The position numbers and the translations under genes are program-made. Source: Sinomonas sp. ASV322 (GTDB taxonomy: Bacteria; Actinomycetota; Actinomycetes; Actinomycetales; Micrococcaceae). From it: a stretch of DNA of 64,000 nucleotides. The stretch lies in the NCBI RefSeq assembly GCF_030908245.1, contig NZ_JAVFJJ010000005.1, positions 186,001 to 250,000 on the forward strand, written 5' to 3'. Numbering within the stretch: the stretch's first letter is position 1; each line of letters begins with the position of its first letter. Below the pieces are notes generated by a model, which saw only the letters and a list, made by a program, of their open reading frames with translations, had not been told where the DNA came from and ran no database searches. Below, one piece after another: positions 22,158 to 53,993 of the stretch.

Positions 22158-22436
22158 CCGTCCAGGGGTCACCACCCGCGGGTCCCCAACAGTCCAGGGG
22201 TCACCTCACGCGGGTCCCCCACCATCCAGGGGTCACCACCCGCGGGTCCCCCACCATCCAGGGGTCACCACCCGCGGGTCCCCCACCATCCAGGGGTCAC
22301 CACCCGCGGGTCCCCCACCGTCCAGGGGTCACCTCCCGCGGGTCCCCCACCCACCGGACGTGACCCCCAAACCACCCCCCACCCACCGGAGGTGACCCCC
22401 AAACCACCCCACACCCACCGGAGGTGACCCCCAAAC
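22158..22436. repeat. Hairpin array A: six forward and three inverted 32-bp units
   Basis: Directly after the ligD stop, six copies of a 32-bp unit (core GGGGTCACCACCCGCGGGT, preceded by CCA or GTCCA) are followed by three inverted copies (ACCCACCGGAGGTGACCCCC) at the same period. Any forward copy can pair with any inverted copy. The array ends just before the pxpA promoter. It is not CRISPR: there are no unique spacers. Confidence 0.95.
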
Positions 22437-22442
22437 GGGGAA

Positions 22443-22476
22443 GATTGTTGAACAATCCTCCAACTTGAGGCATGCT
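22443..22476 (+). promoter_or_regulatory. pxpA promoter with palindromic operator
   Basis: The palindrome GATTGTTGAACAATC (22443-22457) overlaps a TTGAAC -35 (22448-22453); CATGCT 17 bp on (22471-22476) serves as -10. The same half-sites recur before the DUF969 gene at 28022-28056, pointing to one regulator, most simply the GntR protein at 26891. Confidence 0.65.
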
Positions 22477-22511
22477 GGATGCATCACAGCATCCTGAGAC
22501 GGAGGTCACTC

Positions 22512-23297
22512 GTGGCAAGCATCGACCGCCTAGGCATCGACCGCTTAGGAATCGACCTAAACAGCGACGTCGGCGAGTCGTTCGGCAACTGGACGTTCGG
22601 CGACGACGCGGCGATCTTCGCGAGCGTCTCGAGCGCGAACGTCGCGTGCGGTTTCCACGCGGGCGATCCGAGCGGCATCCGTGCGACGTGCCGTGCCGCG
22701 GCCGCGGCGGGCGTCACCGTCGGCGCGCATCCTGGCTACCGCGACCTCGCGGGATTCGGGCGCCGCTTCATGGACGTCGCCCCGAACGAGCTGACCGACG
22801 ACGTCGTCTACCAGATCGGCGCGCTCCGCGGCCTCGCGCAGGCGGCAGGCACCGAGGTCCGCTACGTCAAGCCGCACGGCGCCCTCTACAACACGATCGT
22901 GCACCACGCCGAGCAGGCCAAGGCCGTTGCCCGCGCCGTCGCGGAGGTCGACCCCGCGCTCCCGATCCTCGTGCTGCCCAACTCCGAGATCGAGCGCGCT
23001 GCCCGCGCCGCCGGCCTCCGCACGGTCGCGGAGGCGTTCGCGGACCGCGCCTACAGCCCCGACGGGACGCTTGTCTCCCGACGCGAGCCCGGCTCGGTGC
23101 TCCACGACCTCGACGCGATCGTCGAGCACGTGCTTCGCCTGCTCGACGGGGAGGTCCGCGCGATCGACGGGAGCGTCGTCCCGATCGCGGCGGAGAGCAT
23201 CTGCGTCCACGGCGACACCGCGGGAGCTGTCGCGATGGCGGCGCGCATCCGCGAGGCCATCACGGCCGCGGGCGTCCCGATCGCGAGCTTCGTATGA
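22512..23297 (+). CDS. pxpA: 5-oxoprolinase subunit PxpA (LamB/YcsF family)
   Basis: 261 residues from GTG 22512, which has GGAGG six bases before it; an upstream ATG at 22479 would lie on the promoter. [39 protein letters not shown] and [10 protein letters not shown] are all LamB/YcsF signatures. PxpA works with PxpB and PxpC to open 5-oxoproline to glutamate using ATP. A 15-bp duplication makes IDRLG appear twice at the N-terminus. It overlaps the next gene in an ATGA junction. Confidence 0.93.
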
Positions 23298-25021
23298 GGA
23301 CGGCACCGAACCGGGACGCCACCGCGGAAGGCCGCGAGGCGGTCGTCGGCATCCGCCCGTCCGGCGAGCGCGCGATCCTCATCGAGCTCGCCTCCCCGGG
23401 CGCCGTCCTGAGCCTCGCCCGCGAGCTCGACGCCGCTCCGCCGCCCGGCGTCGTCGACGTCGTCGCCGCGGCCACCACCGTCCTTGTGGCCGCGGACTCC
23501 CCGGCTTCGCTGCCCGGGATCGTCCGCCGCGTGCGCGAGCTGGGCGGGGCATCCGCGGCGCCCCGAGCCGGCAAGCTCGTCGTCATCGAGACGGTGTACG
23601 ACGGCGCTGACCTCGACGAGGTCGCGCGGCTCGCGGGGCTGAGCCGCGAGGGTGTCGTCGCCGCGCATGCGGGGCAGGTCTGGAGCGCGGCGTTCATCGG
23701 CTTCGCGCCGGGCTTCGCGTATCTCACGGGCGACGGCGCGCTCGACGTCCCGCGGCGCACCTCGCCACGGACGGCGGTTCCAGCGGGCTCAGTGGGCCTC
23801 GCGGGGACGTACTCGGCCGTGTACCCAAGCCAATCGCCCGGCGGCTGGCAGCTCATCGGCCGCACCTCGGCGCCCATGTGGGACCTCGGACGGGACGACC
23901 CCGCGCTCATCCACCCGGGCGACGAGGTGCGCTTCGAGCCGGTTCGCGCACGCGCCGAGCTCACCCAGCCCGGGCCCGCGGCGCGGACGCACGCGGAGGG
24001 GGCCGCGCCGTCGTCGTCCGATGTTTCCACGGCGGGCCTCGTCATCGAGCCGGGGCTCCGCGCAGGGGGCCTCGTCGTCGTCGCGCCGGGCCTCCAGACC
24101 ACGGTCCAGGACCTCGGCCGCCCCGGCCTCGCCGCGCTCGGGGTGAGCGCCGCGGGGGCCATGGACCGCGACTCGCTCCGGAGCGCGAACCGCGCCGTGG
24201 GCAACTCCCCCGACGCGGCGGGCCTCGAGGTCCTGTTCGGCGGCCTCGCCCTGCGCGCGGCGGGGGATCAGGTGCTCGCGGTCACCGGCGCGCGGGCCGT
24301 CCTGAGTGTCACGACCGACGACGGCGCCGCCCCCTCGCGCTCCGAGCGGCACCCCGCGCTCGGCGAGCCGTTCGCGCTCCTCGGGGGCGAGACGCTCCGG
24401 CTCGGCACGCCGTCCGCCGGGCTTCGCAGCTATGTCGCGGTGCGGGGCGGACTGGATGTTCCGCCGGTGCTTGGGAGTCGCTCGACGGACACGCTCGCCG
24501 GGATCGGGCCTGAGCCGCTCACAGCCGGGGACCTGCTCGAGGTGCTGCGGCCCCGGGGCGCCCACGTCGTCGGTCTGCCCGAGACTCCCCCGCCTCTGCC
24601 CGAGGGCGTGACCGCGCTGCGCGTCGTGCCGGGGCCGCGCCAGGACTGGTTCACCGAGGACGCCGCGCGCGGCTTCTTCGACGCCGAGTGGACCGTGACC
24701 CCGCAGTCCAACCGCGTGGGACTGCGCCTGGCCGGATCGGCCCTCGCGTGGAACCGCTCGGACGAGCTCAAGAGCGAGGGGACCGTGCGCGGCTCGATCC
24801 AGGTCCCGCCCAACGGCCAGCCGGTTCTTTTCCTCGCCGACCACCCCGTGACGGGCGGCTATCCCGTGATCGGCGTCGTCGTCGAGGCCGACCTCGACCT
24901 CGCGGGCCAGCTCCCGCCCGGCGCGCGCGTCCGGTTCGCCGCCGTCGCCCCCATCCATGCCCCCCTCCGCCCAACCCACGCTCTCCCGCCCCACCCACCC
25001 TTAGGAACCCCCCGTGCGTAA
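23294..25021 (+). CDS. pxpBC: Fused 5-oxoprolinase subunits PxpB and PxpC
   Basis: 575 residues. Residues 1 to about 230 are PxpB (KipI-like: [38 protein letters not shown]) and about 255-560 are PxpC (KipA-like: [58 protein letters not shown]). The halves are homologous to the carboxyltransferase part of urea carboxylase. The joining linker holds a PSSSD-type insert and PxpC contains a TTDDGAAPS insert. The stop overlaps the next start by 8 bases. Confidence 0.93.
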
Positions 25022-26774
25022 AGTCCTCATCGCCAACCGCGGCGAGATCGCCGTCCGCGTGGCCCGAGCCTGCGACGACGCGGGCCTCGCGAGCGTCGCC
25101 GTCTACGCGGACCAGGACGCCGACGCCGTCCACGTCGCCGCGTGCACCGAGGCGTACGCGCTCGGCGGGACGTCCCCCGCGGAGACCTACCTCAACGTGG
25201 CCAAGATCCTCGAGGCCGCGGCCCGCTCGGGCGCGGACGCCGTCCATCCCGGCTACGGCTTCCTGTCCGAGAACGCGGACTTCGCCCAGGCCGTCCTCGA
25301 CGCGGGGCTCGCGTGGATCGGGCCCTCGCCCGAGACCATCCGCATGCTCGGGGACAAGGTGAGCGCCCGGGCCGTCGCCGTGCGCGCCGGCGCCCCGCTC
25401 GCGCCCGGCAGCGACGGGCCGGTCGCGAGCGCCGAAGAGGTCCGGGAGTTCGCGCGAGCGCACGGACTGCCGGTGGCCATCAAGGCCGCGTTCGGCGGCG
25501 GCGGGCGCGGGCTCAAGGTCGCCCGCACGATGGGCGAGATCGAGGAGAGCTTCGATTCCGCCGTGCGCGAGTCGCGCGCAGCGTTCGGGCGCGAAGAGTG
25601 CTTCGTCGAGAAGTTCCTCGATAAGCCGCGGCACGTCGAGGCCCAGGTCCTCGCGGACACGCACGGGAACGTCATCGTCGTCGGAACGCGCGACTGCTCC
25701 CTCCAGCGCCGCCACCAGAAGCTCGTCGAGGAGGCGCCCGCGCCGTTCCTCACCGACGGGCAGCGGGCCCGCATCCACGAATCCGCCAGGGCGATCTGCC
25801 GCGAGGCCGGCTACGTGGGCGCCGGCACGGTCGAGTACCTCCTCGACCGCACCGGGACACTGAGCTTCCTCGAGGTCAACACTCGCCTCCAGGTCGAGCA
25901 CCCCATCACCGAGGAGACCTCGGGCATCGACCTCGTCGCCGCGCAGCTCGCGATCGCGGCCGGCGCCCCCGTGCCCGTGCTCGAGGACCCCGAGCCGCGC
26001 GGGCACGCGATCGAGTTCCGCATCAACGCCGAGGATCCCGGCCGCGGCTTCCTGCCCTCACCCGGAACCGTGACGCGCTTTGCCGCGCCCACGGGGCCGG
26101 GGATCCGCGTGGACTCGGGGGTCCGCGACGGCTCTACCGTGCCGGGGCAGTTCGACTCGCTCCTCGCCAAGCTCGTCGTGTGGGGCGCCGACCGCCAGCA
26201 GGCCCTCCGCCGCGCTCGCCGGGCCCTGCGCGAGTTCGAGATCCACGGCCTCGCGACCGTCCTGCCGTTCCACCGCGCCGTCGTCGAGAGCCCCGCCTTC
26301 ACCGCCGAGGGCGAGCTCAGCGTCTACACGACGTGGATCGAGTCCGAGTTCGCGTCCGAGCTCGCCGCGAACCCGGAGTTCAGCCCCGCCGCGGCCGACA
26401 GCGGCAGGCGCACGTTCGCCGTCGACATCGACGGCAAGCGCGTCACGCTGGGCGTCCCGGAAGCGCTGTTCGCGGGCCTCGCGCTCGTCACGCCCGGCTC
26501 GCCCCGCGTGGCCCGAGCGGACGACGACGGCGCCTCCGTGAGTGCCACGGCTGCCGCGCCGGCGGCGGCGCTCACGGCGGACATGGGCGGGACGATCGTC
26601 AAATGGCTCGCCGACCCGGGCGACGCCGTCGAGGCGGGCGACGCCGTCGTCGTCCTCGAAGCCATGAAGATGGAGACGACCGTCCGGGCCCACCGCGCAG
26701 GACGCCTCGGCGAGCATGCCGCGGCGGCGGGCAACGCCGTCGCCCCCGGTGCCGTGCTCACGACCATCTCGTAA
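25014..26774 (+). CDS. Biotin carboxylase with C-terminal biotin carrier domain
   Basis: 586 residues from GTG 25014. The ATP-grasp biotin carboxylase part starts [17 protein letters not shown], with [26 protein letters not shown] and [15 protein letters not shown] intact. A BCCP domain at the end carries LEAMKMETT with biotinyl-lysine K552. A linker with [16 protein letters not shown] joins them. No classical carboxyltransferase gene is nearby; its likely partner is the PxpB-PxpC fusion encoded immediately upstream and overlapping it. Confidence 0.93.
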
Positions 26775-26784
26775 CCGTCCCATC

Positions 26785-26838
26785 GACTGCTCCGTAACTG
26801 TCGTTATGAGGCCCCAAAACGGCGGTTACGGAGCAGTC
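26785..26838. terminator. Hairpin after the biotin carboxylase gene
   Basis: Perfect 14-bp arms GACTGCTCCGTAAC and GTTACGGAGCAGTC enclose 26 bases that contain further short pairing. It lies 10 bp after the stop codon and before the GntR gene, so it probably ends or weakens the pxp transcript. Confidence 0.7.
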
Positions 26839-26890
26839 GTTGCGGTGGTCGCGCGAGAGGGACCGCTGCACGCGCCGCTAGGGTGGTTCC

Positions 26891-27568
26891 ATGACGTCAG
26901 AGGAGGTCCTGGCCAGCCTGCGCTCCGAGGCGGGCAGCACGAAGCATGCCGAAACGAGCTCGTGGGTCGCGGCGCAGCTGCGGCAGCGCATCGCGGACGG
27001 CCTGCTCGCGCCCGGCGCGAAGCTCGCGGAGGAGGCCCTCCGGGAAGCCCTTGGCGTCTCGCGGAACACGCTGCGCGAGGCGTTCGCGACGCTCCACGCC
27101 GAGCGGGTCGTGACGCGCATCCCGAACCGCGGGGTGTTCGTCTCCCACCCGACGGCCGAGGACATCCAGGAGATCTACAGGGTGCGGCGGCTCGTCGAGC
27201 CCGCGTCGCTCCTGTGGTCCCCCGCCGGGCCGACGGCGCCGCTCGCCGAGATCGTGCGGGCGGCACAGAAGGCCGCGAAGGCCGGCGACGTGCCCGCGAT
27301 GGCCAGTGCGAACCAGGAGTTCCACCGCGCGCTCGTCGCCCGCGCAGGGAGCGAGCGCCTCGACAGCCTCATGGAGCAGATCCTCGCCGAGATGCGGCTC
27401 GTGTTCGCGTCGATGGCCGCGGATCCGCGCTTCCACGCGCCCTACGTCGAGGACAACGCGGCGATCCTCGGGCTCCTCGAGGCCGGGCGCCATGCCGAGG
27501 CCGCGGACTTCATGGTCGACTACCTCGGCCGGGCCGAGCAGCAGCTCCTGGCCGCCGTCGCCCGCTAA
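26891..27568 (+). CDS. GntR-family regulator, FadR/FCD subgroup
   Basis: 225 residues. The winged helix (VAAQLRQRIADGLLAPGAKLAEEALREALGVSRNTLREAF) is followed by an all-helical FCD ligand domain (IYRVRRLVEPASL, NQEFHRALVARAGSERL). It lies between the pxp operon and the DUF969-DUF979 operon; both are preceded by the same GATTGTTnAACAA palindromes, its likely binding sites. The ligand may be 5-oxoproline or glutamate. Its 3' end is duplicated in the following gap. Confidence 0.9.
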   Translation: MTSEEVLASLRSEAGSTKHAETSSWVAAQLRQRIADGLLAPGAKLAEEALREALGVSRNTLREAFATLHAERVVTRIPNRGVFVSHPTAEDIQEIYRVRRLVEPASLLWSPAGPTAPLAEIVRAAQKAAKAGDVPAMASANQEFHRALVARAGSERLDSLMEQILAEMRLVFASMAADPRFHAPYVEDNAAILGLLEAGRHAEAADFMVDYLGRAEQQLLAAVAR

Positions 27569-27637
27569 CCCGCGCTGACCGGTGGCGGGCCGAGCAGCAG
27601 CTCCTGGCCGCCGTCGCCCGCTAACCCGCGCTGACCG
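27530..27637. repeat. 52-bp tandem duplication of the gntR 3' end
   Basis: The 52 bases that end the GntR gene and its stop (27530-27581) are repeated exactly at 27586-27637 after a 4-base join. The second copy is outside the gene. This looks like a recent slip or unequal exchange. Confidence 0.95.
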
Positions 27638-28021
27638 TCGTCGCGCCCGCCCGCCGCCCGTCCCTCGTCGGGCCCGCCCGCCGCCCGTCCCTTCCAGTAC
27701 GCGTACACGAAGGAACGAGCCAATCTCCGTTCCTTCGTGTACGCGTTTCGCTCATCGGCGAAACGAAGACCCCCGGAATTCCCGGGTTCGGGACGCCAAC
27801 CGAGAGCGTTTTCCCGCGAAACGCGTACATCTCGGAACGCGGGCCGTCGTGTACGCGTACAGGATCGGACGCGGGACGGGACGGGAGGGGGAGGTCGGCG
27901 CGCGGTCAGTCCCGGGCCGCCGCGAGGCAGGACTTGATGCTGTCCAAGGTGCGCATGATCCCACCGATTCGGCGACCGGCAGGAGCGGTGACTCCAGCCG
28001 CCCGACGGGAAAACCCCTAAG
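27638..28021. repeat. Gap with direct repeats and hairpins built on GTACGCGTAC
   Basis: No gene is supported in this gap. It holds two copies of GCCCGCCCGCCGCCCGTCCCT (near 27645 and 27674), a perfect 19-bp stem ACGCGTACACGAAGGAACG (27699-27717) with its complement at 27728-27746, a small TTTCGC hairpin near 27746-27762, and two more GTACGCGTAC-like sites near 27821 and 27850. Confidence 0.75.
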
Positions 28022-28067
28022 GATTGTTCAACAAGCCTTGCCTGATTGTTCAACAAAAGGCTATGCT
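28022..28067 (+). promoter_or_regulatory. Promoter of the DUF969 operon with two operators
   Basis: Two copies of GATTGTTCAACAA begin 22 bp apart (28022 and 28044). The second fills the spacer between a TTGCCT -35 (28038-28043) and a TATGCT -10 (28062-28067). The half-sites match the pxpA operator at 22443. Confidence 0.7.
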
Positions 28068-28135
28068 GTGGGTCACAACCGTCCCCGCGCCACTCCCCCC
28101 TTTGCGCAGGACCCGCACCTCCGGAACGGACAATC

Positions 28136-28852
28136 ATGCTCGTACTCATCGGGGTACTTCTGGTGATCGTTGGCTTTGCCATCCGCCTGAACCCACTCGT
28201 CGTCGTCACCGTGGCCGGCATCGTCACGGCGCTCCTCGGTGGACTCAATCCCCTCCAAATCCTCGAAGCCTTCGGAAGCGGCTTCGCGAGCAGCCGCTCG
28301 GTCACGATCTTCGCAGTCGTCCTCCCGGTCATCGGCATCATCGAGTACTTCGGCCTTCAGGAGCAGGCCAAGAACCTCATCGCCAAGCTCGCACGCCTCA
28401 CGGCGGGCCGCGTCCTCCTCGCTTACCTCGCGATCCGCCAGATCACCGCCGCAGTCGGCCTCACGAGCATCGGCGGCCACGCCCAGGCCGTCCGCCCGCT
28501 CGTGTTCCCGATGGCCGAGGGCGCGGCCCTGCGCCGCTACGGCCACGTCCCCGAGCACATCAAGGAGCGCATCAAGGGCCACTCGGCCGCGGCGGACAAC
28601 GTCGGCGTGTTCTTCGGCGAGGACGTCTTCGTGGCGGTCGGCTCGATCCTGCTCATCACGACGTTCGTCGACACGACGTACCACCTTCACCTTGAGCCGC
28701 TCCAGCTCGCCCTGTGGGCGATCCCCACGGCCATCGCGGCCTTCCTCATCCACGGCTTCCGGCTCCTGCGCCTTGACCGTGCCCTGGACAGGGAGTTCGC
28801 CAACACCACCACAGCTGACGAGGCCGCTGCAACGGCAGGAGACACCAAGTGA
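28136..28852 (+). CDS. DUF969 membrane protein
   Basis: 238 residues with about six hydrophobic segments, beginning MLVLIGVLLVIVGFAIRLNP. The RQITAAVGLTSIGGHAQAVRPLVFPMAEGAA block is characteristic of DUF969. This family is regularly paired with DUF979 next to pxpABC and is thought to form the 5-oxoproline transporter. A GGAACGGA precedes the ATG at 28136. It overlaps DUF979 by four bases. Confidence 0.9.
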   Translation: MLVLIGVLLVIVGFAIRLNPLVVVTVAGIVTALLGGLNPLQILEAFGSGFASSRSVTIFAVVLPVIGIIEYFGLQEQAKNLIAKLARLTAGRVLLAYLAIRQITAAVGLTSIGGHAQAVRPLVFPMAEGAALRRYGHVPEHIKERIKGHSAAADNVGVFFGEDVFVAVGSILLITTFVDTTYHLHLEPLQLALWAIPTAIAAFLIHGFRLLRLDRALDREFANTTTADEAAATAGDTK

Positions 28853-29817: not shown

Positions 29818-29827
29818 GAGCCGCCCC

Positions 29828-30961
29828 GTGCCGCACGATCCCTTCCCCGCAGCCGCGGAGCATTGCGCCGCCGTCGTCCTCGACAACCTGTCCCGCACGT
29901 ACCCGTACGCGGCGCACCACATCCAGGTGTCCGACGACGACCGGCCCACGCCGTCCGAGCTTCACCCCGCGTTCGACACGTCGTTCGACTGGCACTCATG
30001 CGTGCACATGCATTGGCTGGGCGTGAGCGTCCTGAACGCAGCGCACAACACAGCGGCTCGCATCTCAGCGGACGACGGCGGCGCCCACCTCGAGCCGCCG
30101 ACGGCGGCACGGCTGCGGGCGGCCTTGGCGGACAACCTCACGGCCGAGAAGCTGGCCGTCGAGGCGGAGTACCTCGCGGCCAACCCGTCGTGGGAGCGCC
30201 CGTACGGCTGGGCGTGGCTCGTTCGCCTCGCGGCGGCGTGCGCCGCGTCGGGCGACGACGAGATCCGCGGCTGGGGGCGGAACCTCGAAGGGTGCGTCGA
30301 CGTCGTCGCCCGCCTCGTCCGCGCGTGGCTCGCCAAGGCCGAGTACCCCGTGCGGCACGGTCTGCACACCAACTCGGCGTTCGGCGTCGCGCTCTTGCTC
30401 GACGCATTCCGCGCGCTCGGCCGGACGGATGCCGCCGAGGCCTGCGAGGCCGCGGCCCGCGCATGGTTCGGCGCCGACGCCCGCTGGGCCTCGGAGTGGG
30501 AGCTCAGCGGGCAGGACTTCCTCTCGGCTGGCCTGAGCGAGGCCGACCTCATGCAGCGCGTCCTCGGCGCCGACGAGTTCGCGGCGTGGTTCGGGCGCTT
30601 CCTTCCCGGGCTCCGCGCGGACTCGCGCATGCTCGCGGTCGTGGGCGTGACCGATGAGTCCGACGGATACATGGTTCACCTGCACGGCCTCAACCTGAGC
30701 CGCGCGGGCCAGCTCGCGCGGGTGGTGCGGGCCCTGCGGGCGGCGGCAGCGCCGTCGACCACTCCTGCGGCGGAGCCGCTGCTCGCGGCGGCAGCGCCGT
30801 CGTCGGTTTCCTCAGCCGAGCCCGTCCTCGCCGCCGCGCTCGAGCCGCTTCTCAAGGCGGGGCTTGCAGCCCTCGACAGCGAGGACTTCATGTCGACGCA
30901 CTGGCTCGCGAGCTTCGCGTGGGACGCGCTCGAATCGCGGCGCGCTCTGCAGCCCGCGTAA
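29828..30961 (+). CDS. DUF2891 family protein
   Basis: 377 residues from GTG 29828 with TAGGAG upstream, only 10 bp after DUF979. LHPAFDTSFDWHSCVHMHW near the start and DFMSTHWLASFAWDAL at the end are DUF2891 signatures; the fold is all-helical, like glycoside-processing barrels. An Ala/Pro/Ser insert with an internal repeat (AAAPSTTPAAEPLL, then AAAPSSVSSAEPVL) lies near residues 305-345 and is probably not in most relatives. Its place in the operon suggests a role in 5-oxoproline or peptide use, but the reaction is unknown. Confidence 0.85.
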   Translation: MPHDPFPAAAEHCAAVVLDNLSRTYPYAAHHIQVSDDDRPTPSELHPAFDTSFDWHSCVHMHWLGVSVLNAAHNTAARISADDGGAHLEPPTAARLRAALADNLTAEKLAVEAEYLAANPSWERPYGWAWLVRLAAACAASGDDEIRGWGRNLEGCVDVVARLVRAWLAKAEYPVRHGLHTNSAFGVALLLDAFRALGRTDAAEACEAAARAWFGADARWASEWELSGQDFLSAGLSEADLMQRVLGADEFAAWFGRFLPGLRADSRMLAVVGVTDESDGYMVHLHGLNLSRAGQLARVVRALRAAAAPSTTPAAEPLLAAAAPSSVSSAEPVLAAALEPLLKAGLAALDSEDFMSTHWLASFAWDALESRRALQPA

Positions 30962-30967
30962 GACGCC

Positions 30968-31146
30968 GTCCAGGGGTCACCTCCCGCGGGTGCGCGGCCA
31001 TCCAAGGGTCACCTCCCGCGGGTGCGCGCCATCCAAGGGTCACCTCCCGCGGGTGCGCGCCATCCAAGGGTCACCTCCCGCGGGTGCGCGCCATCCAAGG
31101 GTCAGCTCCCGCGGGTTACGACCCACGGTAGCTGACCCCTGAACGG
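30968..31146. repeat. Hairpin array B: five forward and one inverted unit
   Basis: Five forward copies of a 31-33-bp unit (core AGGGTCACCTCCCGCGGGT) are followed by one inverted copy, ACCCACGGTAGCTGACCCCT. The last forward copy has CAGCT in place of CACCT and the inverted copy has the matching AGCTG, so the innermost pair is kept complementary. It separates the DUF2891 gene from the convergent gamma-glutamyltransferase gene. Confidence 0.95.
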
Positions 31147-31189
31147 TCATGGCACCTCGGCAAGCTGACGGCGCAACCCAAGGCGACGG

Positions 31190-33016
31190 CTAAGGCGACG
31201 GCGTCACGACCATCGCCGACCCGCCGCCCCTACGCACGGGCTCCGCCGCCGCGAGCATCCTCCCGTCGGGCAGGAACTCGATCGCAGTCTCGGCGCCGAT
31301 CTCGGCCGCCGAGGTGAAGGAATCCCCGGACGGCTGGAGGACGTGCCCGAACGGCGTCAGCTGGCTCCCGTATTTCGTGATGAAGTCCGGCTCAGCAATG
31401 ACCTTCGGCGTATTGCGCTGGGTCGCGCGCGGCGCAGCGATAGCCTGCGGCGTCGTCATCCCCCGGTCGATCCGGTTGAAGATCGTCTGCAGGACGGTCG
31501 TGATGATCGTCGAGCCGCCGGGCGAGCCGAGGGCGAGGAACGGCTTGCCGTCCCGGAGCATGATCGTCGGCGACATCGACGAGCGCGGGCGCTTGCCGGG
31601 GTCGATGCGGTTCGGATCGTTGGGGTTGAAGACGGTCGAGAAATCCGTCAGCTCGTTGTTCAGGATGAAGCCGCGCCCGGGCACGACCATCCCGGAGCCG
31701 CCGGTCTGCTCGATCGTGAGCGTGTACTCGACCACATTGCCCCACTTGTCCGCGACCGTGAGGTTCGTCGTCGAGATGTTCTCGGTGTCGGCGTCGCCCG
31801 CGCTGGCAGCCGCAGCGGCCGGGCAGGCGCCGTCGATCGTCTCGACGTCGCCCGGAGGCACGGGCTTCGTGGCCGCCGTTGTCGGGCTGATCGAGCACGC
31901 GCGCTCCTTGCCGAATTGCGGGTCGAGCAGCTCGTCTGTCGGGACGTCGACGAAGTCCGGGTCGCCCGCGTACTTGCCGCGGTCGGCGAAGGCGAGGGCG
32001 CTCGCCTCGAGGTAGTGGTGCAGAGCGTTGGCGTCGTTCATCTCGGCGAGGTTGAACTGGTCGAGGATATTGAGCGACTCCCCCACCGTCGTGCCGCCGC
32101 TGCTCGATGGCGCCATGCCGAAGACGTCGTAGCCGCGGTAATTCACGTGGGTGGGGTCGCGGTCGACGGTCTTGTACGCCGCGAGGTCCGCCGCCGTCAT
32201 GTGGCCGACGGGAACGGGGAGCGTCGTCGTCGCAGTCTTCGGCGGGTTCTGGACTGTATTCGTGATCTCGCCCGCAAGCGGCCCGCCATAGAAGGCCCCG
32301 ATGCCGTTCGCCGCGATGAGCCTGTACGTGGCGGCAAGGTCGGGGTTCGTGAAAATCGAGCCGACGGCGGGAGCGTCTCCCCCGGGAAGGTACAGGCTGC
32401 TCGTCGTCGTGAAGGCGGCGAAGCGAGCCTTGTTATCGAGCGTCTGCTGGCGGAACGTCGGATCGACGACGAAGCCGCGGTCAGCGACCGTGATTGCCGG
32501 CTGGAGTGCCTGGCCGAGGCCGATCGTCCCCCACCGGTCGAGGGCCCGCTGCCACGTCGCAAGGGTCCCCGGGACGCCGACGGAGATCCCGCTCGTCACG
32601 AGCTCGGGCGTGAACCGGTAGGGCTTGCCGGTGGCCGGGTCGATGAACGCATCGTGCGGCATGACCGCGGGCGCGGTCTCGCGTCCGTCGATCGTGCCGA
32701 TCGTCCCGTCCTGGGCGTTGTAGAAGACGAAGTATCCACCGCCGCCGATGCCAGCGCTGTAGGGCTGAGTGACGCCGAGCGTCGCAGCCGCGGCGACGGC
32801 GGCGTCCGCGGCGTTGCCGCCATTGCGGAGCACTCCGAGGGCCGCGGCGGAGGCCTCCGCGTCGACGCTGCTGACGGCGCCGCCGAAGCCGACGGCGGTG
32901 GGCTGCTTCTGCGTGACCTGGCCGTCGGCGACGGCGGGACCGACGACGGCGCCGCCCGTCACCGTGAGCGCGAGGGCCGCGCCAAGGGCTGCCAGTCGAT
33001 ATCGAAGAGTGGTCAT
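31190..33016 (-). CDS. ggt: Secreted gamma-glutamyltransferase
   Basis: 608 residues with a signal peptide (RLAALGAALALTVTGGAVVG). AVSSVDAEASAAALGVLRNGGNAADAAVAAAATLG is the family start, and the self-cleavage site STTNLTVADKWGNVV supplies the nucleophilic threonine of the small subunit; the GSPGGSTIITTV loop is intact. GGGAGG precedes the ATG. The enzyme cleaves gamma-glutamyl bonds outside the cell. Products of this chemistry include 5-oxoproline and glutamate, which fits the neighbouring pxp and DUF969-DUF979 genes. Confidence 0.93.
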   Translation of the reverse strand: MTTLRYRLAALGAALALTVTGGAVVGPAVADGQVTQKQPTAVGFGGAVSSVDAEASAAALGVLRNGGNAADAAVAAAATLGVTQPYSAGIGGGGYFVFYNAQDGTIGTIDGRETAPAVMPHDAFIDPATGKPYRFTPELVTSGISVGVPGTLATWQRALDRWGTIGLGQALQPAITVADRGFVVDPTFRQQTLDNKARFAAFTTTSSLYLPGGDAPAVGSIFTNPDLAATYRLIAANGIGAFYGGPLAGEITNTVQNPPKTATTTLPVPVGHMTAADLAAYKTVDRDPTHVNYRGYDVFGMAPSSSGGTTVGESLNILDQFNLAEMNDANALHHYLEASALAFADRGKYAGDPDFVDVPTDELLDPQFGKERACSISPTTAATKPVPPGDVETIDGACPAAAAASAGDADTENISTTNLTVADKWGNVVEYTLTIEQTGGSGMVVPGRGFILNNELTDFSTVFNPNDPNRIDPGKRPRSSMSPTIMLRDGKPFLALGSPGGSTIITTVLQTIFNRIDRGMTTPQAIAAPRATQRNTPKVIAEPDFITKYGSQLTPFGHVLQPSGDSFTSAAEIGAETAIEFLPDGRMLAAAEPVRRGGGSAMVVTPSP

Positions 33017-33179
33017 GATGCCTCCCGGTTCATGGGGAATGAAGACAGGGCGTGACCCAACCTAGTTCGCACCCGAGGCAACGTCAGCCCGCGGAGCAAT
33101 CGAGTTTCTGCTGCCCGGTGGGGTGAACTAGGGGTTGTTGCTGTTCGTTTGATGTATCGGGGAGGACGACGGGAGCACG

Positions 33180-33680: not shown

Positions 33681-33687
33681 GAAGACC

Positions 33688-35229: not shown

Positions 35230-35271
35230 GTCGCCAAAATATCACAGATGCGATAGTTGACCTGAAATCGA

Positions 35272-35323
35272 CACGAAATGGAGACACAGGGCGGTCTAGA
35301 CCGCCCTGTGTCTCCATTTCGTG
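35272..35323. repeat. Perfect 52-bp palindrome
   Basis: Two exact 26-bp arms (left arm starts CACGAAATGGAGACACAGGG, centre GGTCTAGACC) with no loop. It sits 7 bp after the VOC stop and 42 bp before the HTH-MurA start, so it may end VOC transcription on the minus strand. A perfect palindrome this long is unusual because it can extrude as a cruciform. Confidence 0.97.
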
Positions 35324-35330
35324 AGATAAA

Positions 35331-35735: not shown

Positions 35736-35841
35736 CATGGGCTCCTTTGGCTGGGTCATAGCGTGGGTCCCCCGGGGCAACGATTGCATCCCCGGCACGC
35801 GGAGCGCCAGAGACGAGCATGCCCATTGCGGGCGGCCCCGG

Positions 35842-39574: not shown

Positions 39575-39589
39575 CCGAGCATCACCTGA

Positions 39590-46048: not shown

Positions 46049-46179
46049 GGGGTGCCTCCGCTATGTCAGGTGTAGGAATCGCAGAAAGTTGGGGTCGGCG
46101 GATGTCAGTTGGGTTCACAGAAAGAGGTGACGCCGGTGCGAGCGTCCCCGCCAGCTTATCAAGCGCTAGCATGCGAGCT

Positions 46180-47565: not shown

Positions 47566-47587
47566 GCGGTGCGGCCGTCGCCTCGCG

Positions 47588-48793
47588 CTAGCCTGCGGCG
47601 GGATAGTCGGGCAGGACGACCGATTCGTGGACTCGCACGCCCCTGAGGCCCAGCGCAGTGAACGCCCTCGCGAGCGGCGGCGGCATCCGACTGACCAGCC
47701 GCACCCCGGTGACAACTGCCCACACCTGAAGCCCGGTGGCTGGGACCACCGTCCGCGCCGCCCGGAGGGCGAACGCCCGACTCGCCCGAACGTATTCGCC
47801 GATCGCCCGCTCATAGGCCGCGAAGGCGCGCACATGATCGCCGTCGGCCCGCGCAAGTTCCTCGGCCAGGGTGTAAGCACTCACGACCGCGAGGCTCGTG
47901 CTGCCGCCCACCACCGGGCCTGGGCAGAACCCGGCGTCGCCGACGAGCGTGACTCTGCCACGTGACCAGGTATCCATCGTCAACTGGGTGATCGAGTCGA
48001 AGTAGAAGGCCGGCGTGGTGTCCAGCTCGCCGAGCCAAGCGTCCGCCTCGGGGGCCAGGCCGGCGAGCGCAGCCCGTAGCAGTTCCTTCTGTCTCCCGGT
48101 ATCCCGGTGGTCGTATTCGAGCGGCATGTTCGCGCGAAACAGGAACAGCGCTCGTGCGTCGGCGAGATGCTGTGCGCTGTACAGCGCGGCCGTGCGGCCC
48201 GCTCCCGCGTGGACGAGCATGCGGCGGTCGACGCTGAGGGCTTTCGGCAGCGAGGCAACAGCCAGGTACGCGCCCAAGAACCTCGAGTAATCGGATTCTT
48301 CGCCGAAGACCAGCCGGCGCACGTTCGAGTGCAGCCCATCGGCCCCCACGACGACATCGAACCGGCGAGGCTCGCCGTGCTCAAAGGAAACGTCGCCGTC
48401 AGAGGAAATGGACGTGATCGAGTCGCCGAAGACGTATTCGACGTCGCCGGCGGTCGCGGCGTAGAGCGTCTCGCTTAGGTCGTCCCGCATGATCTCGACG
48501 TGCCGGTCTGAAACCGCCGGCAAGGCTTTCGTGAGATCGATGTGGACCGCCCGCGCGGCCCCCTCGCGCGTGAGCATCACGTAATCCGTACCCGTGGCGA
48601 GGGCCTCGACCTGCTTGGCGACGCCCATCCGATCCATGATGTCCATCGCAGGCCGGAACAAGTCGACGGCGTGGCCTCCCGCTCTGCGGAACACCGACGC
48701 GCGCTCGACCACCGTGACGGCATGTCCCCGCCGCGCCAGCCAATAGGCCACCACCGGGCCAGCCACGCTCGCACCCGACACCAAAACCCGCAT
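47588..48793 (-). CDS. FAD-dependent monooxygenase (PHBH fold)
   Basis: 401 residues. The FAD dinucleotide motif is GASVAGPVVAYWLARRGHAVTVVE, the DG motif is VVGADGLHSNVRR, and the GD motif is RVTLVGDAGFCPGPVVGGST. Class A flavoprotein hydroxylases of this type modify aromatic or drug-like compounds; TetX-like proteins are relatives. The substrate is not evident. Confidence 0.88.
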   Translation of the reverse strand: MRVLVSGASVAGPVVAYWLARRGHAVTVVERASVFRRAGGHAVDLFRPAMDIMDRMGVAKQVEALATGTDYVMLTREGAARAVHIDLTKALPAVSDRHVEIMRDDLSETLYAATAGDVEYVFGDSITSISSDGDVSFEHGEPRRFDVVVGADGLHSNVRRLVFGEESDYSRFLGAYLAVASLPKALSVDRRMLVHAGAGRTAALYSAQHLADARALFLFRANMPLEYDHRDTGRQKELLRAALAGLAPEADAWLGELDTTPAFYFDSITQLTMDTWSRGRVTLVGDAGFCPGPVVGGSTSLAVVSAYTLAEELARADGDHVRAFAAYERAIGEYVRASRAFALRAARTVVPATGLQVWAVVTGVRLVSRMPPPLARAFTALGLRGVRVHESVVLPDYPAAG

Positions 48794-48957
48794 GCCAACA
48801 CCCCGGTTCAGGAGACCAATTCAGCATATTTCCGCACATGCCGCCTGAGTCAACGGATTGCCGCCTCCCAAGAGCGAGAAGGAGGGCTCCGGATCTGGTG
48901 CACGGATCACGTCGGCATCATGATGGCCGAATGTGGCTGTTTGGGACGACCATTCGC

Positions 48958-50595
48958 ATGACGAAGAATTTCCTCGTGACCGTCTGGGACGACACACCAG
49001 AGAACAGGGCGGCTGCAGAGGCTATCGGGTCGACGTGCGAGGCGGATCTCGCAGCTCTCGAGGATTGGTTCAACTACCGTTGGGCCGATTTTCCGTACGG
49101 GATCTTGGTGACGGTAGGGCAAGACGGAAACCCGAACCCGCACGCTGTCACCCTGTGGTCCGGCACGGCGAACTCGCCGCAGATCAGCGTCTACGGCGCG
49201 ACCGTCGGCAACGCCGCCGGCTCAGCCGCCGTGCGGGACGAGCTCGCCCGCATGCTCTTCTCCGCCGAATTGGCCGAGGTTCTCATGCACGCCTCTCCCA
49301 ACGGGTGGAACCCGGGAAACAACGCAGGAGAGGGACTCTCCCGGATCGCAGGCGCGGAACTGCACCCGCTCGGCTACTACCGCCCGGCCGGAGCCTCGAA
49401 CAACGGTCCGTACTCCACGGCGTGGCTCCAGCTCGGCTACCGTACCCGGGACCGGCAGGACGCCGGAGCCGCAGGCCCCAGATATGACTTCATCACGGTG
49501 TCCGAGAACAGCGACACGAACGTCCTTTCCTACGGCTGCGCCATACAGTTCCTGTACTACTTGCACACCCAGCTGCACTACACCTGGCGGCAGATCGCCA
49601 CGTCATGGGGCGCTCACCTCTGCGAGACCTTCGCCCAGCTCACCAATCGGCCGTCGACGACGGCGTTCACCGAGTTCAGCGACGTCCTGAACGCGCACCT
49701 GCCGCCAGGCACCTCGCTCTCGCCGACCACCGACAATGTCTTTCCGCTCAGCGCCGCGCCGCCTGTCGTGCTCGTGGCTTCCTACGGGAAGGCGATCGGG
49801 CACGCGAACCCGGCACAGTCATTGGCGACGCTGAAACCGGGCGTCTTCTGCGAGGAGTCGACCTACTCGTATCGCGTCGTGGACATCACCGCGCCCGTCT
49901 CGATCGTCGCACGCGCCCCCGGCGCATTCGCCCCGCGGTTCCGCTGGAGCGTCAACGGCGTGCCCGTGTCGGGGTCGGGAGTGACCCGACAGGCCACCGT
50001 GCCGGTCCGTGTCGTGAACACCGCGCCGGGCGGGTCCGAACCCGCCAAGGACGGTGTTCCGCTCACGATCAGCTACCTGATCACCGACCTGCCCGACCGG
50101 AGCCAGGTGACCATCACAAACCTCAGCTTCCCCGGAAACATCGACGGTCTCGACGTCACGGCCGTGATGACCGAAGCTGGCGCGGCCAATCTTGGGTCGA
50201 CGAGCGGGACAACGTCTGTTGCGCCCCGATACCGCGACTACGACATGGAAGCCCGCTGGTACCTCGACGTCGCCGCGTGCAACCCCAAGTCGCTCGGGGA
50301 AGCCGTCGTCCACCGGGACGCGATGCTGGGCAAGCTGTTCGCGCTGAAGAATCTCCCGGACCCTTCACCCGAGCAGCTCGTGGATTTGGCCCATGAGGCC
50401 GTCCGCTTCCTCGAATCGTCCCGCGATCTGGTCTCGGCGGCCGCGAATGACCAGAGCGTCGTCGCAGCCCTGCTCCCACCTCTCAGCGCCGCCCTCACGC
50501 GAAGGGACCTGGATACCGTCGTCGGCCTCGAAGGGCGCGTGTTCAGGGTCCCGGAGCCCGCCCATGCACCCGAACCGCGAGGTGCGCCGGACTAG
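48958..50595 (+). CDS. Unrecognised 545-residue protein
   Basis: Starts MTKNFLVTVWDDTPENRAAAE; ATGs at 48931 and 48919 are possible alternatives because no clear binding site decides. No signal peptide. Residues about 20-250 form a region with EDWFNYRWADFPYGILVTV, LFSAELAEVLMHAS, NAGEGLSRIAGAEL and LHYTWRQIATSWGAHLCETF, which looks enzyme-like but lacks a known motif. The middle (about 320-430) is beta-rich, the end helical (ESSRDLVSAAANDQSVVAALL). Function not assigned. Confidence 0.75.
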   Translation: MTKNFLVTVWDDTPENRAAAEAIGSTCEADLAALEDWFNYRWADFPYGILVTVGQDGNPNPHAVTLWSGTANSPQISVYGATVGNAAGSAAVRDELARMLFSAELAEVLMHASPNGWNPGNNAGEGLSRIAGAELHPLGYYRPAGASNNGPYSTAWLQLGYRTRDRQDAGAAGPRYDFITVSENSDTNVLSYGCAIQFLYYLHTQLHYTWRQIATSWGAHLCETFAQLTNRPSTTAFTEFSDVLNAHLPPGTSLSPTTDNVFPLSAAPPVVLVASYGKAIGHANPAQSLATLKPGVFCEESTYSYRVVDITAPVSIVARAPGAFAPRFRWSVNGVPVSGSGVTRQATVPVRVVNTAPGGSEPAKDGVPLTISYLITDLPDRSQVTITNLSFPGNIDGLDVTAVMTEAGAANLGSTSGTTSVAPRYRDYDMEARWYLDVAACNPKSLGEAVVHRDAMLGKLFALKNLPDPSPEQLVDLAHEAVRFLESSRDLVSAAANDQSVVAALLPPLSAALTRRDLDTVVGLEGRVFRVPEPAHAPEPRGAPD

Positions 50596-50604
50596 AGTTG
50601 TTCC

Positions 50605-51087
50605 ATGAACGTGGACGAGACCGAGCTCCCTGGGATCGGGGTTCGCAAGGATTTCATGACGCAATCGGGCCGCCGCCTCGGCGTCGTGACGCATCGCGAC
50701 GGTCACACTGAACTCATCGTGTCGACGTGGGATGATCCGGACACGTGCCAGGCGTCCATCCCCCTCACCGGCGATGAGGCCTCGGCGCTCGGCAACCTCC
50801 TCGGCAGCCAGCGGATCGTCATGCAGCTCACCGAGGAGCACAAGGAAGTCCCGGGCATTGTGACCCGCCAGTTCTCCATCGTCGCCGACTCTCCGTACCG
50901 CGAACAGCCCATGGGCAAGGCCGCGATCCGGACGCGGACGGGCGTCTCGATCGTCGCGATCATGCGCGAAGGCGAGGTGCTGCCCTCCCCCGGGCCAGAC
51001 GCGATCCTGCACATCGGCGACCTGCTCGTCGCCGTCGGCACCCAGGAGGGCCTCGACGCCGCAGCGGCCGTGCTGCGCAACGGCTGA
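50605..51087 (+). CDS. Cation:proton antiporter regulatory subunit (KhtT-like, TrkA-C domain)
   Basis: 160 residues. An N-terminal segment (ELPGIGVRKDFMTQSGRRLGVVTHRDG) is the KhtT start, and residues 90-155 form a TrkA-C domain ending HIGDLLVAVGTQEGLDAA. It should sense a nucleotide or ion and gate the antiporter encoded seven bases downstream. Confidence 0.88.
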   Translation: MNVDETELPGIGVRKDFMTQSGRRLGVVTHRDGHTELIVSTWDDPDTCQASIPLTGDEASALGNLLGSQRIVMQLTEEHKEVPGIVTRQFSIVADSPYREQPMGKAAIRTRTGVSIVAIMREGEVLPSPGPDAILHIGDLLVAVGTQEGLDAAAAVLRNG

Positions 51088-51094
51088 GAAGCGC

Positions 51095-52309
51095 ATGGAC
51101 TCGATCGCACTGACGCTCATCGAACTCGGGGCGGTCATCTTCGCCCTCGGATTCCTCGCGCGGCTTGCCGGTCGGATCAGCATGTCGCCGATCCCGCTCT
51201 ACCTCCTCGGAGGGCTCTTGTTCGGCGCGGGCAGCTTCGTCGATCTCCACGGCGTGCGCGACTTCGCCCACCTCGCGGGCGAGATCGGCGTCATTCTCCT
51301 CCTGCTCCTGCTCGGCCTCGAGTACACGGCCAAGGAGCTCTTCACGGGCCTGCGCCGCTCGTGGCAGGCCGGGGTGGTGGACGCCGTCCTGAACATCATC
51401 CCCGGAGCGGGCGTTGCTCTCCTGCTCGGCTGGGGGCCGCTCGGCGCCCTCGTCATGGGCGGCGTCACCTACATCTCGTCGTCGGGCATCGCGGCGAAGG
51501 TGATCACCGACCTCGGCCGCGTGGGCAACCGCGAGACACCCACGATCCTCTCGATCCTCGTGTTCGAGGACCTCGCGATGGCCGTCTACCTTCCGATCCT
51601 CACCGCGATGCTCGCGGGGGTGAGCTGGCTCGGCGGGCTTCAGACGGTCGGCATCTCCCTCGCCGTCATCACAATCGTGCTCGTCGTCGCCCTCCGCCAT
51701 GGGCAGCGGGTCTCACAGGCAGTGCACAGCGAGAATTCCGAGGTCTTCCTCCTCAACGTCATGGGACTCGCGCTGCTCGTGGCCGGCATCGCATCCGCTA
51801 TGCAGGTCTCCGCGGCCGTTGGTGCATTCATGCTCGGCATCGCGATTTCGGGAACGACGGCGGATCTCGCCTCCCGCCTGCTCGAGCCCCTGCGCGATCT
51901 CTTCGCCGCGATCTTCTTCGTGGCGTTCGGCCTCAACACGGATCCGAGGTCCATTCCGCCCGTGCTCGGCTGGGCGCTCCTGCTCGCGATCGTCACGTCC
52001 CTCACGAAGCTGGCCACCGGATGGTGGGCCGCGTCCCGCGCCGGCGTCGCGGTGCCCGGCCGGGCTCGTGCCGGGGCTTCGCTCATCGCACGCGGCGAGT
52101 TCTCGATCGTCATCGCGGGCCTCGCCGTGACGTCCGGCGCCGTGACGGGCGAGCTCGCAGCGCTCGCGACGGCCTATGTGCTGCTGATGGCCGTCATCGG
52201 GCCGCTCGCGGCGCGCTTCATCGAGCCGGCGGTCAAAGCGCTCCGGCGGCCGCGTCAGGCGAAGCAGAGGGCTCGCGCGACCGTCGGCGACCGTCCAGAA
52301 GTCACCTAA
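51095..52309 (+). CDS. Cation:proton antiporter, CPA2/KefB-KhtU-like
   Basis: 404 residues, about twelve membrane segments, starting MDSIALTLIELGAVIFALGFL. SSSGIAAKVITDLGR and GRARAGASLIARGEFSIVIAGLA are conserved blocks of monovalent cation:proton antiporters. The last residues (GDRPEVT) and the stop codon are supplied by the first unit of hairpin array C. It likely effluxes K+ in exchange for H+. Confidence 0.9.
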   Translation: MDSIALTLIELGAVIFALGFLARLAGRISMSPIPLYLLGGLLFGAGSFVDLHGVRDFAHLAGEIGVILLLLLLGLEYTAKELFTGLRRSWQAGVVDAVLNIIPGAGVALLLGWGPLGALVMGGVTYISSSGIAAKVITDLGRVGNRETPTILSILVFEDLAMAVYLPILTAMLAGVSWLGGLQTVGISLAVITIVLVVALRHGQRVSQAVHSENSEVFLLNVMGLALLVAGIASAMQVSAAVGAFMLGIAISGTTADLASRLLEPLRDLFAAIFFVAFGLNTDPRSIPPVLGWALLLAIVTSLTKLATGWWAASRAGVAVPGRARAGASLIARGEFSIVIAGLAVTSGAVTGELAALATAYVLLMAVIGPLAARFIEPAVKALRRPRQAKQRARATVGDRPEVT

Positions 52310-52408
52310 CGCGGGTTGTGGCCCATCCAGAAGTCACGTAACGCGGGTCCAACCCACGGGACGTGACCCCCAAACGACCGCGCACCCACGGAACGTGACC
52401 CCCAAACG
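52292..52408. repeat. Hairpin array C: two forward and two inverted units
   Basis: Forward units contain AGAAGTCACCTAACGCGGGT and AGAAGTCACGTAACGCGGGT; inverted units are ACCCACGGGACGTGACCCCC and ACCCACGGAACGTGACCCCC. The change CACCT to CACGT in the inner forward unit is matched in the inverted units. The first unit is inside the antiporter gene and gives its stop codon (TAA). Confidence 0.93.
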
Positions 52409-52458
52409 TTAAACAGCCGCGCAACCCCCGCGAAACGCGCCTCCGAGAGTATGGAGGC

Positions 52459-53286
52459 ATGGACACCCAGCGCACGACCCCCACCGTCGCGCACCCCGAC
52501 CTTGCGTGCGAGGTCTGCGGCCGCTATCCCGAGCCTCCCAAGGCCAGGCTCACGCTCGCCAACGTGGCCGCAATGCTGCCCATCGAGCTCGCGGTGCACG
52601 TCGCCGTCGTCGGCACTGAATGGCCGGTTCCGCTCAAGGTGGTGCTCCTCGCGGCGCTGACCACGACGCTCGTGATCTGGGTGGCGGAGCCGAGCGTCCG
52701 ACGGCTTCTGCGCTCGTGGCTCCACGCGCCCGCGCTCAGGCGGCGCCGCGAGCTCGAGGTTGCCCCGTCCCTGTGGCGGGGCCGCGTCACGCTCCCGGAC
52801 ATGCCCGGCGCGCTCGAGAAGGTCACGCGATCCCTCGCGAAGCTGGGCGTCAACGTGCTCTCGATCCAATCGCAGCCCGTGACGGGCGGCGTCGTGGACG
52901 CACTCGTGCTCTCGGCCCCGGGAGGGCTCACCGAGGACGATCTCCTCGACGCCATGGCGATCGGCGGCGGCGCCGCGCCGCGCGTCTGGCCGACGACGCC
53001 CCTCGCGCTCGTGGACGGACCCACGCAGGCGCTGAGCCTCGCGACGCGCGTCGCCGCGAATCCTTCAGAGCTTCCGTACGCCGCGGCGGAGCTCCTCGGC
53101 GCCGAACGCGTGCCGGCGAACAGCTCGCTCGACGCCGCCGCCGTCGCCCGAGGCACCGTGCTCAAGGTTCCCGCGACCCCCGAGCCGCTTGTCCTCGTGC
53201 GCCCGGGCGAGCCGTTCACGCCGGCGGAGGCCGCGCGGGCGAGCCGCCTCGCCGAGCTCGCGGAAGCCGCCGCGCTCCGCGCCTAA
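52459..53286 (+). CDS. ACT domain protein with N-terminal membrane segments
   Basis: 275 residues. Residues about 35-75 include one or two hydrophobic stretches (AAMLPIELAVHVAVVG; VVLLAALTTTLVIWVAE), then an ACT-type regulatory domain starts at about 115 (GRVTLPDMPGALEKVTRSLAKLGVNVLSIQSQPV). The C-terminal part is Ala/Pro-rich. ACT domains bind amino acids; the partner is unknown. It overlaps the convergent lutC by four bases. Confidence 0.75.
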   Translation: MDTQRTTPTVAHPDLACEVCGRYPEPPKARLTLANVAAMLPIELAVHVAVVGTEWPVPLKVVLLAALTTTLVIWVAEPSVRRLLRSWLHAPALRRRRELEVAPSLWRGRVTLPDMPGALEKVTRSLAKLGVNVLSIQSQPVTGGVVDALVLSAPGGLTEDDLLDAMAIGGGAAPRVWPTTPLALVDGPTQALSLATRVAANPSELPYAAAELLGAERVPANSSLDAAAVARGTVLKVPATPEPLVLVRPGEPFTPAEAARASRLAELAEAAALRA

Positions 53287-53993
53287 CGGGCGATGATGAC
53301 GTCGAGCATGCGCGGTCCGTGGACGCCCTCGACGCGCTCGAGCTCGATGTCGCTCGTCGCGGACGGGCCCGAGATGAGCGTGAGCGGCCGAGTGACGTCG
53401 AGTCGTGCGAAGCCCTCCGGGACGATCCCCGCGATCGTCTCGACCGGGACGACGCACACGTGGTGGTCCGGGACGAGCGAGATCGCCCGCCGTCCCTGGT
53501 CCGGCGACCCGTCGAGGACGATCGTTCCGGTCTCGGCGATGCTCACGGCGGAGGACGTGACGACGGCGTCGAGCGCGTCGAGGCGTTCGACGGCGATGGG
53601 CGCCTCGCGCGAGTCCGTCACCGCGCGGTCGGCGAGGGCCGGGTGCAGCCACTCGGTCGGGAAGCCGTGCGGCACCACGAACCGCTTGCCGTCGAGTCGC
53701 TTCCTGATCGCCCCGGCGAGTTCGCCGCGGGCGACGACCTCGACGCGAGCCTTATAGTCCTCGAGTCGGTCGACGAGGAGTTCCACGAGGCCGTCCTCGT
53801 CCATCTCGGACTCGGTGCGATACGGCGTGCGGTACGCCGACGGCTCCGGGGCCCGTTCAGGGGTCACCTCCTGTCGGTCCGAACCCACGGAAGGTGACCC
53901 CTGAACGAGAGCACCCACGGGACGTGACCCCTGAACGGAGCCGGCCCCAAGGGCCTCGCGGACGCGGGCCAGGATCTCGTCGCGCGCGCTCAC
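53283..53993 (-). CDS. lutC: Lactate utilisation protein LutC
   Basis: 236 residues of the LutC/YkgG family: RFVVPHGFPTEWL, AVSIAETGTIVLDGSPDQGRRAISLVPDHHVCVV and LISGPSATSDIELERVEGVHGP are typical. Residues about 19-46 are encoded by hairpin array D (VQGSRPVGALVQGSPSVGS), a likely flexible insert. With LutA and LutB it oxidises L-lactate to pyruvate. It overlaps lutB by four bases. Confidence 0.92.
   Translation of the reverse strand: MSARDEILARVREALGAGSVQGSRPVGALVQGSPSVGSDRQEVTPERAPEPSAYRTPYRTESEMDEDGLVELLVDRLEDYKARVEVVARGELAGAIRKRLDGKRFVVPHGFPTEWLHPALADRAVTDSREAPIAVERLDALDAVVTSSAVSIAETGTIVLDGSPDQGRRAISLVPDHHVCVVPVETIAGIVPEGFARLDVTRPLTLISGPSATSDIELERVEGVHGPRMLDVIIAR
53855..53938. repeat. 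Hairpin array D: one forward and two inverted units, inside lutC
   Basis: A forward unit (GTTCAGGGGTCACCTCCTGT) and two inverted units (ACCCACGGAAGGTGACCCCT, ACCCACGGGACGTGACCCCT) lie in frame near the start of lutC. This is the same family as arrays A-C in gene gaps. Confidence 0.93.

Follow-up and report, generated by a model that had tools for sequence, protein, structure and literature searches.

What are the repeated hairpin arrays found in a 64,000-bp stretch of the Sinomonas sp. ASV322 genome, and what could have placed them there? This stretch, the window, corresponds to C29:186001-250000 of a 4.34-Mb assembly in 33 contigs (G000), and a preliminary description of it had pointed out four loci at which forward copies of a core of about 22 bp are followed by inverted ones. 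We consider that these arrays are probably gene-less copies of a two-part dispersed-repeat system, similar to the repetitive extragenic palindromes (REPs) and the REP-associated tyrosine transposases (RAYTs), with an unrelated nuclease whose gene resembles both abiEi and DUF559 genes. Comparison of 15 Sinomonas genomes, namely G000 and those of 14 other species (G296-G309), shows the pairing of such genes with repeat units, a common geometry, and a species-specific spread of units to the 3' ends of genes; for the units tested, the copies of a unit track its cognate gene.

All four loci exist with the copy numbers first given. Scanning the window for the core with at most three mismatches returned 20 matches, versus a mean of 0.07 and a largest count of 2 in 100 dinucleotide shuffles. 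Array 1 (22158-22438, six forward and three inverted units with a 32-bp period) lies between the stop codon of a LigD gene (22153) and a YcsF/LamB gene (22479), the neighbouring genes being named by Pfam. Array 2 (30966-31146, five forward units and one inverted unit, period mostly 31 bp) is flanked by convergent genes for a DUF2891 protein (stop at 30961) and a gamma-glutamyltranspeptidase (31190-33016, minus strand). Array 3 (52291-52409, two forward and two inverted units) overlaps the stop of a gene called at 51095-52309; its second forward copy is diverged beyond the core scan, yet it is a 92% repeat. Array 4 (53853-53938, one forward and two inverted units) lies within an open reading frame (ORF) on the minus strand (53283-53993) and keeps its frame, a feature missing from the preliminary description. 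The unit in G000 is about 26 nt long (CCGTYCAGGGGTCACCTCCCGCGGGT and variants), with a linker that varies by locus and an overall period of 32 bp. The build differs from that of clustered regularly interspaced short palindromic repeats, as the units switch to the inverted orientation and the linkers repeat within an arm. No Rfam family matched at the arrays, which agrees with the earlier remark that no named repeat class is known to have this build.

The whole G000 genome contains 304 core matches at the same threshold (134 and 170 by strand), while the core written backwards as a control gives 4. We surveyed the order of units in 38 arrays of at least two units (231 units in total) from the window, 25 genomic stretches and a contiguous 400-kb sample. 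Thirty-one arrays are forward-then-inverted and none is inverted-then-forward; six have a single orientation and one is mixed. Of these six, two belong to a single gene-bearing element (L068), one block on either side of its gene, and another (L054) is cut off by the end of its contig. The survey supports the fixed order and the view that each locus is one hairpin whose arms have been multiplied. Neighbouring units of the same orientation are spaced by 32 bp in 142 of the 158 steps, and three contigs (C4, C10 and C14) start inside an array or no more than about 70 bp from one. Growth by slippage, as had been suggested, would fit the near-identical tandem units and linkers within an arm, but leaves the dispersal of the arrays and their link to a gene unexplained. 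In contig C12, long runs of C and of G also occur between convergent genes (offsets 108406-108614 and 338337-338570 of L113-L132), which are perhaps degenerate arrays or assembly errors.

The link to a gene is most clearly seen at L068 of G000, where one gene has four forward units on one side and seven inverted units on the other. L074 of G296 is laid out in the same way, with the 22-bp unit of that genome. The unit and period flanking the gene equal those of the dispersed arrays of the same genome in G000 (L068 and L183), G296 (L074 and L195) and G297 (L185, 14 bp, where one side was read directly and both sides by common 10-mers). The full element would thus consist of forward units, the gene and inverted units, or, in some families, of the gene between two complete hairpins. 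The arrays look like this gene-bearing element minus its gene, which would explain their fixed forward-then-inverted order. When the flanks of paralogues were read, forward units were found 5' and inverted units 3' of many of them, with a unit that differs between paralogues; the gene between two complete hairpins was seen in the family with unit B (described below) and in some genomes of other families, and ambiguous cases include L187, L205, L206, L211, L212 and L258.

To put the flank reading into numbers, we counted, for each gene, the 10-mers that its 5' flank of 300 bp has in common with its 3' flank read as the reverse complement. Our genus set contained 49 genes, including L211, L212 and a gene in the window; the set from other genera contained 27 scored out of 29 loci, these being the best matches of a longer list (L213 and L233, having no open frame, were dropped, and L221, with one internal stop recorded, was possibly read on the wrong strand); and the controls were 533 other genes, all 450 bp or longer, from three Sinomonas samples. 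At least five common 10-mers were found for 26 of the 49 genus genes, 13 of the 27 genes from other genera and 8 of the 533 controls, and at least eight for 15, 11 and none, respectively. More distant DUF559 genes (L153-L182) seem, by eye and among the matches listed, to be bracketed by AAGCTGGGGAGG, GATTCCGACCGGG and GACACAACTC. Furthermore, G300:C1:2603369-2604138 and L206 contain gene copies that match in pieces only, which suggests turnover.

For the units tested, the presence of a unit in a genome follows that of its gene. Unit B has 33 copies in G000, 11 in G301 and 27 in G302, and none in the other 12 genomes; when 47 genus proteins, the stronger matches of the L068 search without a broken G300 copy, were clustered at 60% identity, the B-type cluster had one member each in exactly these three genomes, an overlap with a chance of 1 in 455 by simple arithmetic. 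An inverted partner lies exactly 31 bp on from 13 of 13 forward B units in G302 and from 15 of 16 in G000, and in neither genome is a forward unit preceded by an inverted one within 200 bp. Unit C has 10-86 copies in nine genomes and none in the other six, and genes with this unit were read in G298, G299, G301 and G305. Relatives of the L068 protein with at least 46% identity are found in 13 of the 15 genomes; in the two without them, G302 and G308, the core is at background (4 matches each). Protein and unit distances are correlated (r = 0.76, n = 27, and r = 0.64, n = 20, for units picked by eye from the flank readings), with 0 of 5000 permutations in each case. The pairing also extends to another family of the class, in which a search of 26 genomes for GTTGATCATGGAGAAG gave 125, 114 and 109 copies in the three with the most (its backwards control has none in the 125-copy genome) and 0-2 copies in the family's other genera. 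At L269 an AbiEi/DUF559-like gene has GTTGATCATGGAGAAG hairpins on both sides, while at L268 such hairpins flank instead an unrelated gene, presumably cobU-like.

The proteins encoded at L068 and L074 are 307 amino acids long each. Their N-terminal halves match the AbiEi models of PADLOC (E-values of 1.7e-11 and 2e-12, respectively), and the C-terminal halves show weak matches to DUF559 or REase_MTES_1575. Residues E207, Y251, G253, H255 and H256 are invariant in 27 of 27 proteins, and D239 is kept in 26; together, E207, D239 and the motif Y-[ED]-G-x-H-H fit the pattern of a PD-(D/E)XK nuclease. The protein would hence be an AbiEi-like, DNA-binding half of the antitoxin type fused to a half related to DUF559/REase_MTES_1575 with a restriction-type PD-(D/E)XK fold. 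It may recognise its own unit and cut there; cutting would spread hairpin copies, often just past stop codons, and the arms would then grow or shrink through tandem duplication. The model for such recognition is AbiEi itself, which is reported to bind inverted repeats and, through them, to regulate its own expression (PMC7319586).

Autoregulation of this kind offers a different reading, in which the units are operators: the AbiEi-like half would repress its own gene, and the dispersed copies would serve as additional regulatory sites or as decoys, the whole being a one-gene system for defence or of a toxin-antitoxin-like kind. The profile matches speak for it. However, there would be no need for operators to lie 3' of the gene or to recur at the 3' ends of numerous genes unrelated to it, and 1 of the 35 arrays that could be placed relative to genes lies within 15 bp of a start codon. 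In addition, the arrays at L068 and those at L074 enclose no further large gene, AbiEii itself not having been searched for. We regard this reading as distinctly unlikely. Compared with type IV AbiE systems, the element shares the N-terminal half that matches AbiEi profiles, but it has one large gene, a nuclease-type C-terminal half and repeats spread over the genome.

The positions of the arrays bear on another rival, namely, that they are terminators or 3'-end stabilisers of mRNA under selection, the DUF559-like gene being a passenger in one array. Using gene ends from a simple GC-based gene caller, we placed 35 arrays, 19 in convergent, 15 in tandem and one in divergent gaps, with three more at contig ends, whereas 267 gaps of the 400-kb sample comprise 55 convergent, 155 tandem and 57 divergent ones. 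The arrays are mostly found at the 3' ends of genes, and a stop codon lies within 15 bp of 27 of the 35; since random placement in the same gaps gives 48%, the effect of the stop codon itself is moderate. Moreover, where the arms differ, one strand retains G-T (G-U) pairs, with 103 of 115 arm transitions in agreement with the majority of their own array, versus a mean of 80 and a maximum of 92 in 20000 simulations, although the arrays share unit types and these polarity tests are hence not independent. Convergent gaps, nearby stop codons and one-strand pairing would all suit such a role. On the other hand, this reading does not explain why each paralogue comes with a unit of its own, why genomes that lack the B-type gene also lack unit B, or why an array lies in frame in a coding region; the pairing polarity does not track gene direction in tandem pairs, and hairpins resembling ordinary terminators, as judged by eye, adjoin arrays in G297. 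No T run was noticed after the window arrays on reading the sequence, no terminator scan having been made. We judge the terminator reading unlikely. Under the preferred reading of a gene-paired dispersed repeat, the one-strand pairing hints that the protein perhaps recognises a single-stranded hairpin.

Two related interpretations were set aside. We did not adopt an RNA element as the main interpretation because no Rfam family matched and because the G-U polarity is independent of transcription in tandem gene pairs. Likewise, TCACCTCC resembles the 3' end of 16S rRNA, but an anti-Shine-Dalgarno reading was dropped as frequent variants (CGT, CCA) break the likeness.

The preliminary description had also raised the possibility of a REP-like element that depends on a transposase-like enzyme from another locus. 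A repeat paired with a candidate enzyme is indeed what we find, the candidate being the AbiEi-like/DUF559-like protein, but the RAYT part of the proposal failed: Y1_Tnp (PF01797) was found in none of the 15 Sinomonas genomes, while the positive control was found in 5 of 14. As in REP/RAYT systems, the repeats are high-copy extragenic palindromes of 20-40 bp paired in inverted orientation as hairpins, and a chromosomal enzyme gene has its own repeat on its flanks, with unit and enzyme diverging in step (for RAYTs, partly after PMC3733652). That source gives a GTAG or CGTC tetranucleotide at one repeat end, which was not noticed by eye at the unit ends of G000, the only units inspected for it. 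The present system differs in that its linked gene is AbiEi-like/DUF559-like rather than a Y1 HUH transposase, its arms are multiplied (n+m), and several gene-unit pairs exist per genome.

An ordinary REP or miniature inverted-repeat transposable element (MITE), mobilised by a classical or Y1 transposase from another locus and unrelated to the nuclease-like gene, would also be high-copy, palindromic, extragenic, and present or absent between species. The Y1 result above argues against it (classical transposases were not searched for), as does the recurrence of unit-gene pairing in several families, and we consider it highly improbable. MITEs lack a gene but retain the ends of an element that bears one. 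The arrays seem to be alike in this respect, but they come without a demonstrated target duplication or a paired transposase, and their ends are tandemly multiplied.

Counts of the core vary within the genus. With at most three mismatches it has 51-80 matches in G296, G297, G299, G300, G301 and G303, 13-41 in G298, G304, G306, G307 and G309, and 4-7 in G302, G305 and G308, versus 2-12 for the backwards controls in these genomes. A spread of the exact core beyond the genus was not borne out: with at most two mismatches, no genome but G000 exceeds four matches among 296 sampled in the class, a sample in which G000 was the sole member of the genus and the family had just two further genomes. A wider contig scan, of a set that may omit near relatives, returned two single matches in unrelated organisms. 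The period depends on the species, being 32 bp in G000, 22 bp in G296 and 14 bp in G297 and G299. As to the genus, G297 is placed together with G000, and its second contig is 100% identical over the first 15 kb to the S. atrocyanea plasmid NZ_CP014519.1. At the LigD-YcsF junction, viewed at 11 loci (4 of the genomes are excluded), the marker lies upstream of YcsF in six and is missing in five. The nine-unit array of G000 corresponds to about 20 bp in G301, G299 and G306 are array-free, and G307 and G300 each have a pair of short inverted units that differ in type; the flanks are too diverged between G000 and G301 for a target duplication to be aligned. In the G297 sample (L133-L144), GTTTCGGGTACGCATCTCG units stand forward and inverted around a terminator-like hairpin at offsets 186051 and 231125.

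Several observations weigh against the arrays being gene-less copies spread by this nuclease. We infer movement, binding and cutting by the enzyme solely from comparison, and the genomes compared are separate species, among which strain-level insertion with target duplication is not seen. The DUF559 profile matched with E-values of 1.8e-4 to 6e-4 and not at all for L074, the MTES_1575 match is under the cut-off, a structure-sequence search returned PvuRts1I alone (E = 0.38), and a single-sequence structure prediction had a predicted local distance difference score (pLDDT) of 34. Twenty-three of the 49 genus genes fall below five common 10-mers, the low scorers including the G000 gene at L068, with a count of 2 (its two arms are diverged variants), and the gene in the window, with a count of 3. 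G305 has a homologue with core-unit (F1) counts at background, its own unit being type C, and G309 has homologues with just 13 F1 matches. Two repeats of related type, found in G296 (L076) and G297, begin with their inverted units. Lastly, several genes hold one chromosomal place across species, so that the protein-unit correlation partly reflects shared descent.

The system may reach well beyond Sinomonas. Homologues of the L068 protein are found in 191 of the 296 sampled genomes of the class, and TGTGGATAA, a DnaA-box-like site, occurs in the 250 bp preceding 36 of 45 genus genes (a set without L211, L212, the window gene and one gene of G297), 7 of the 27 class genes and 4 of 533 controls, examples being L183, L195 and L269; it may tie the expression of these genes to replication. 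A class-wide actinobacterial genome parasite or genome-shaping system, in which an AbiEi-fused restriction-fold nuclease copies its own hairpin to gene 3' ends, independently of REP/RAYT and possibly timed by replication through the DnaA-box-like site, is conceivable, and we would put its likelihood a little short of even. Already with the preferred reading of a gene-paired dispersed repeat, a common and unexplained group of proteins with an AbiEi-like N terminus and a DUF559-like C terminus would gain partner DNA and a testable role, palindromic repeats could be dispersed by enzymes unrelated to Y1 transposases, and some of the repeats between genes and of the contig breaks seen in such GC-rich genomes would be accounted for. 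With so many coexisting gene-unit pairs, each can be compared with the others for recognition and movement. Among the open PubMed Central papers listed, judged by title and abstract opening, we found no account of such gene-repeat pairing and no paper with both DUF559 and AbiEi.

The window contains further traces of such elements. A solo unit-B hairpin (26783-26839; CTGCTCCGTAACTGTCGTT and its inverse 31 bp on) lies just past the stop of a gene ending at 26774; the B-type gene of G000 is at G000:C31:82751 (L208). An AbiEi-like/DUF559-like gene on the plus strand (59281-60231) with a weak REase_MTES_1575 match is a paralogue of the array-paired gene. By eye, it has an upstream flank unit at 59154-59245 (end approximate; beginning GCGAATTGTTGGCC, with a diverged inverted partner) and a downstream inverted unit at 60229-60275 (ending CCCAACAATTCGC) that overlaps its stop codon. 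No viral homologues of the window protein were found.

The ORF that contains array 4 (53283-53993) is presumably LutC-like, and the array encodes its N-terminal linker. This linker varies among 15 species (the window and L270-L284); in the 14 other species the orthologue has a different sequence at this place, and many orthologues have in-frame short repeats in it, such as (G)AEVTPGG in G301, G306 and G307, while those of G296 and G308 are short. This variation makes the place look like a recurrent landing or retention site. Rickettsia palindromic elements likewise place a palindromic repeat in frame within a protein gene, but their sequence, host and linked gene differ. Close by, at 54010-54117, lies a different direct repeat, GCGCCGTCACCTTTCGCG, similar to the unit that adjoins gene L186 of G309; a scan of 464 kb of G000 for the L186 unit gave 7 matches, versus 1 for its control.

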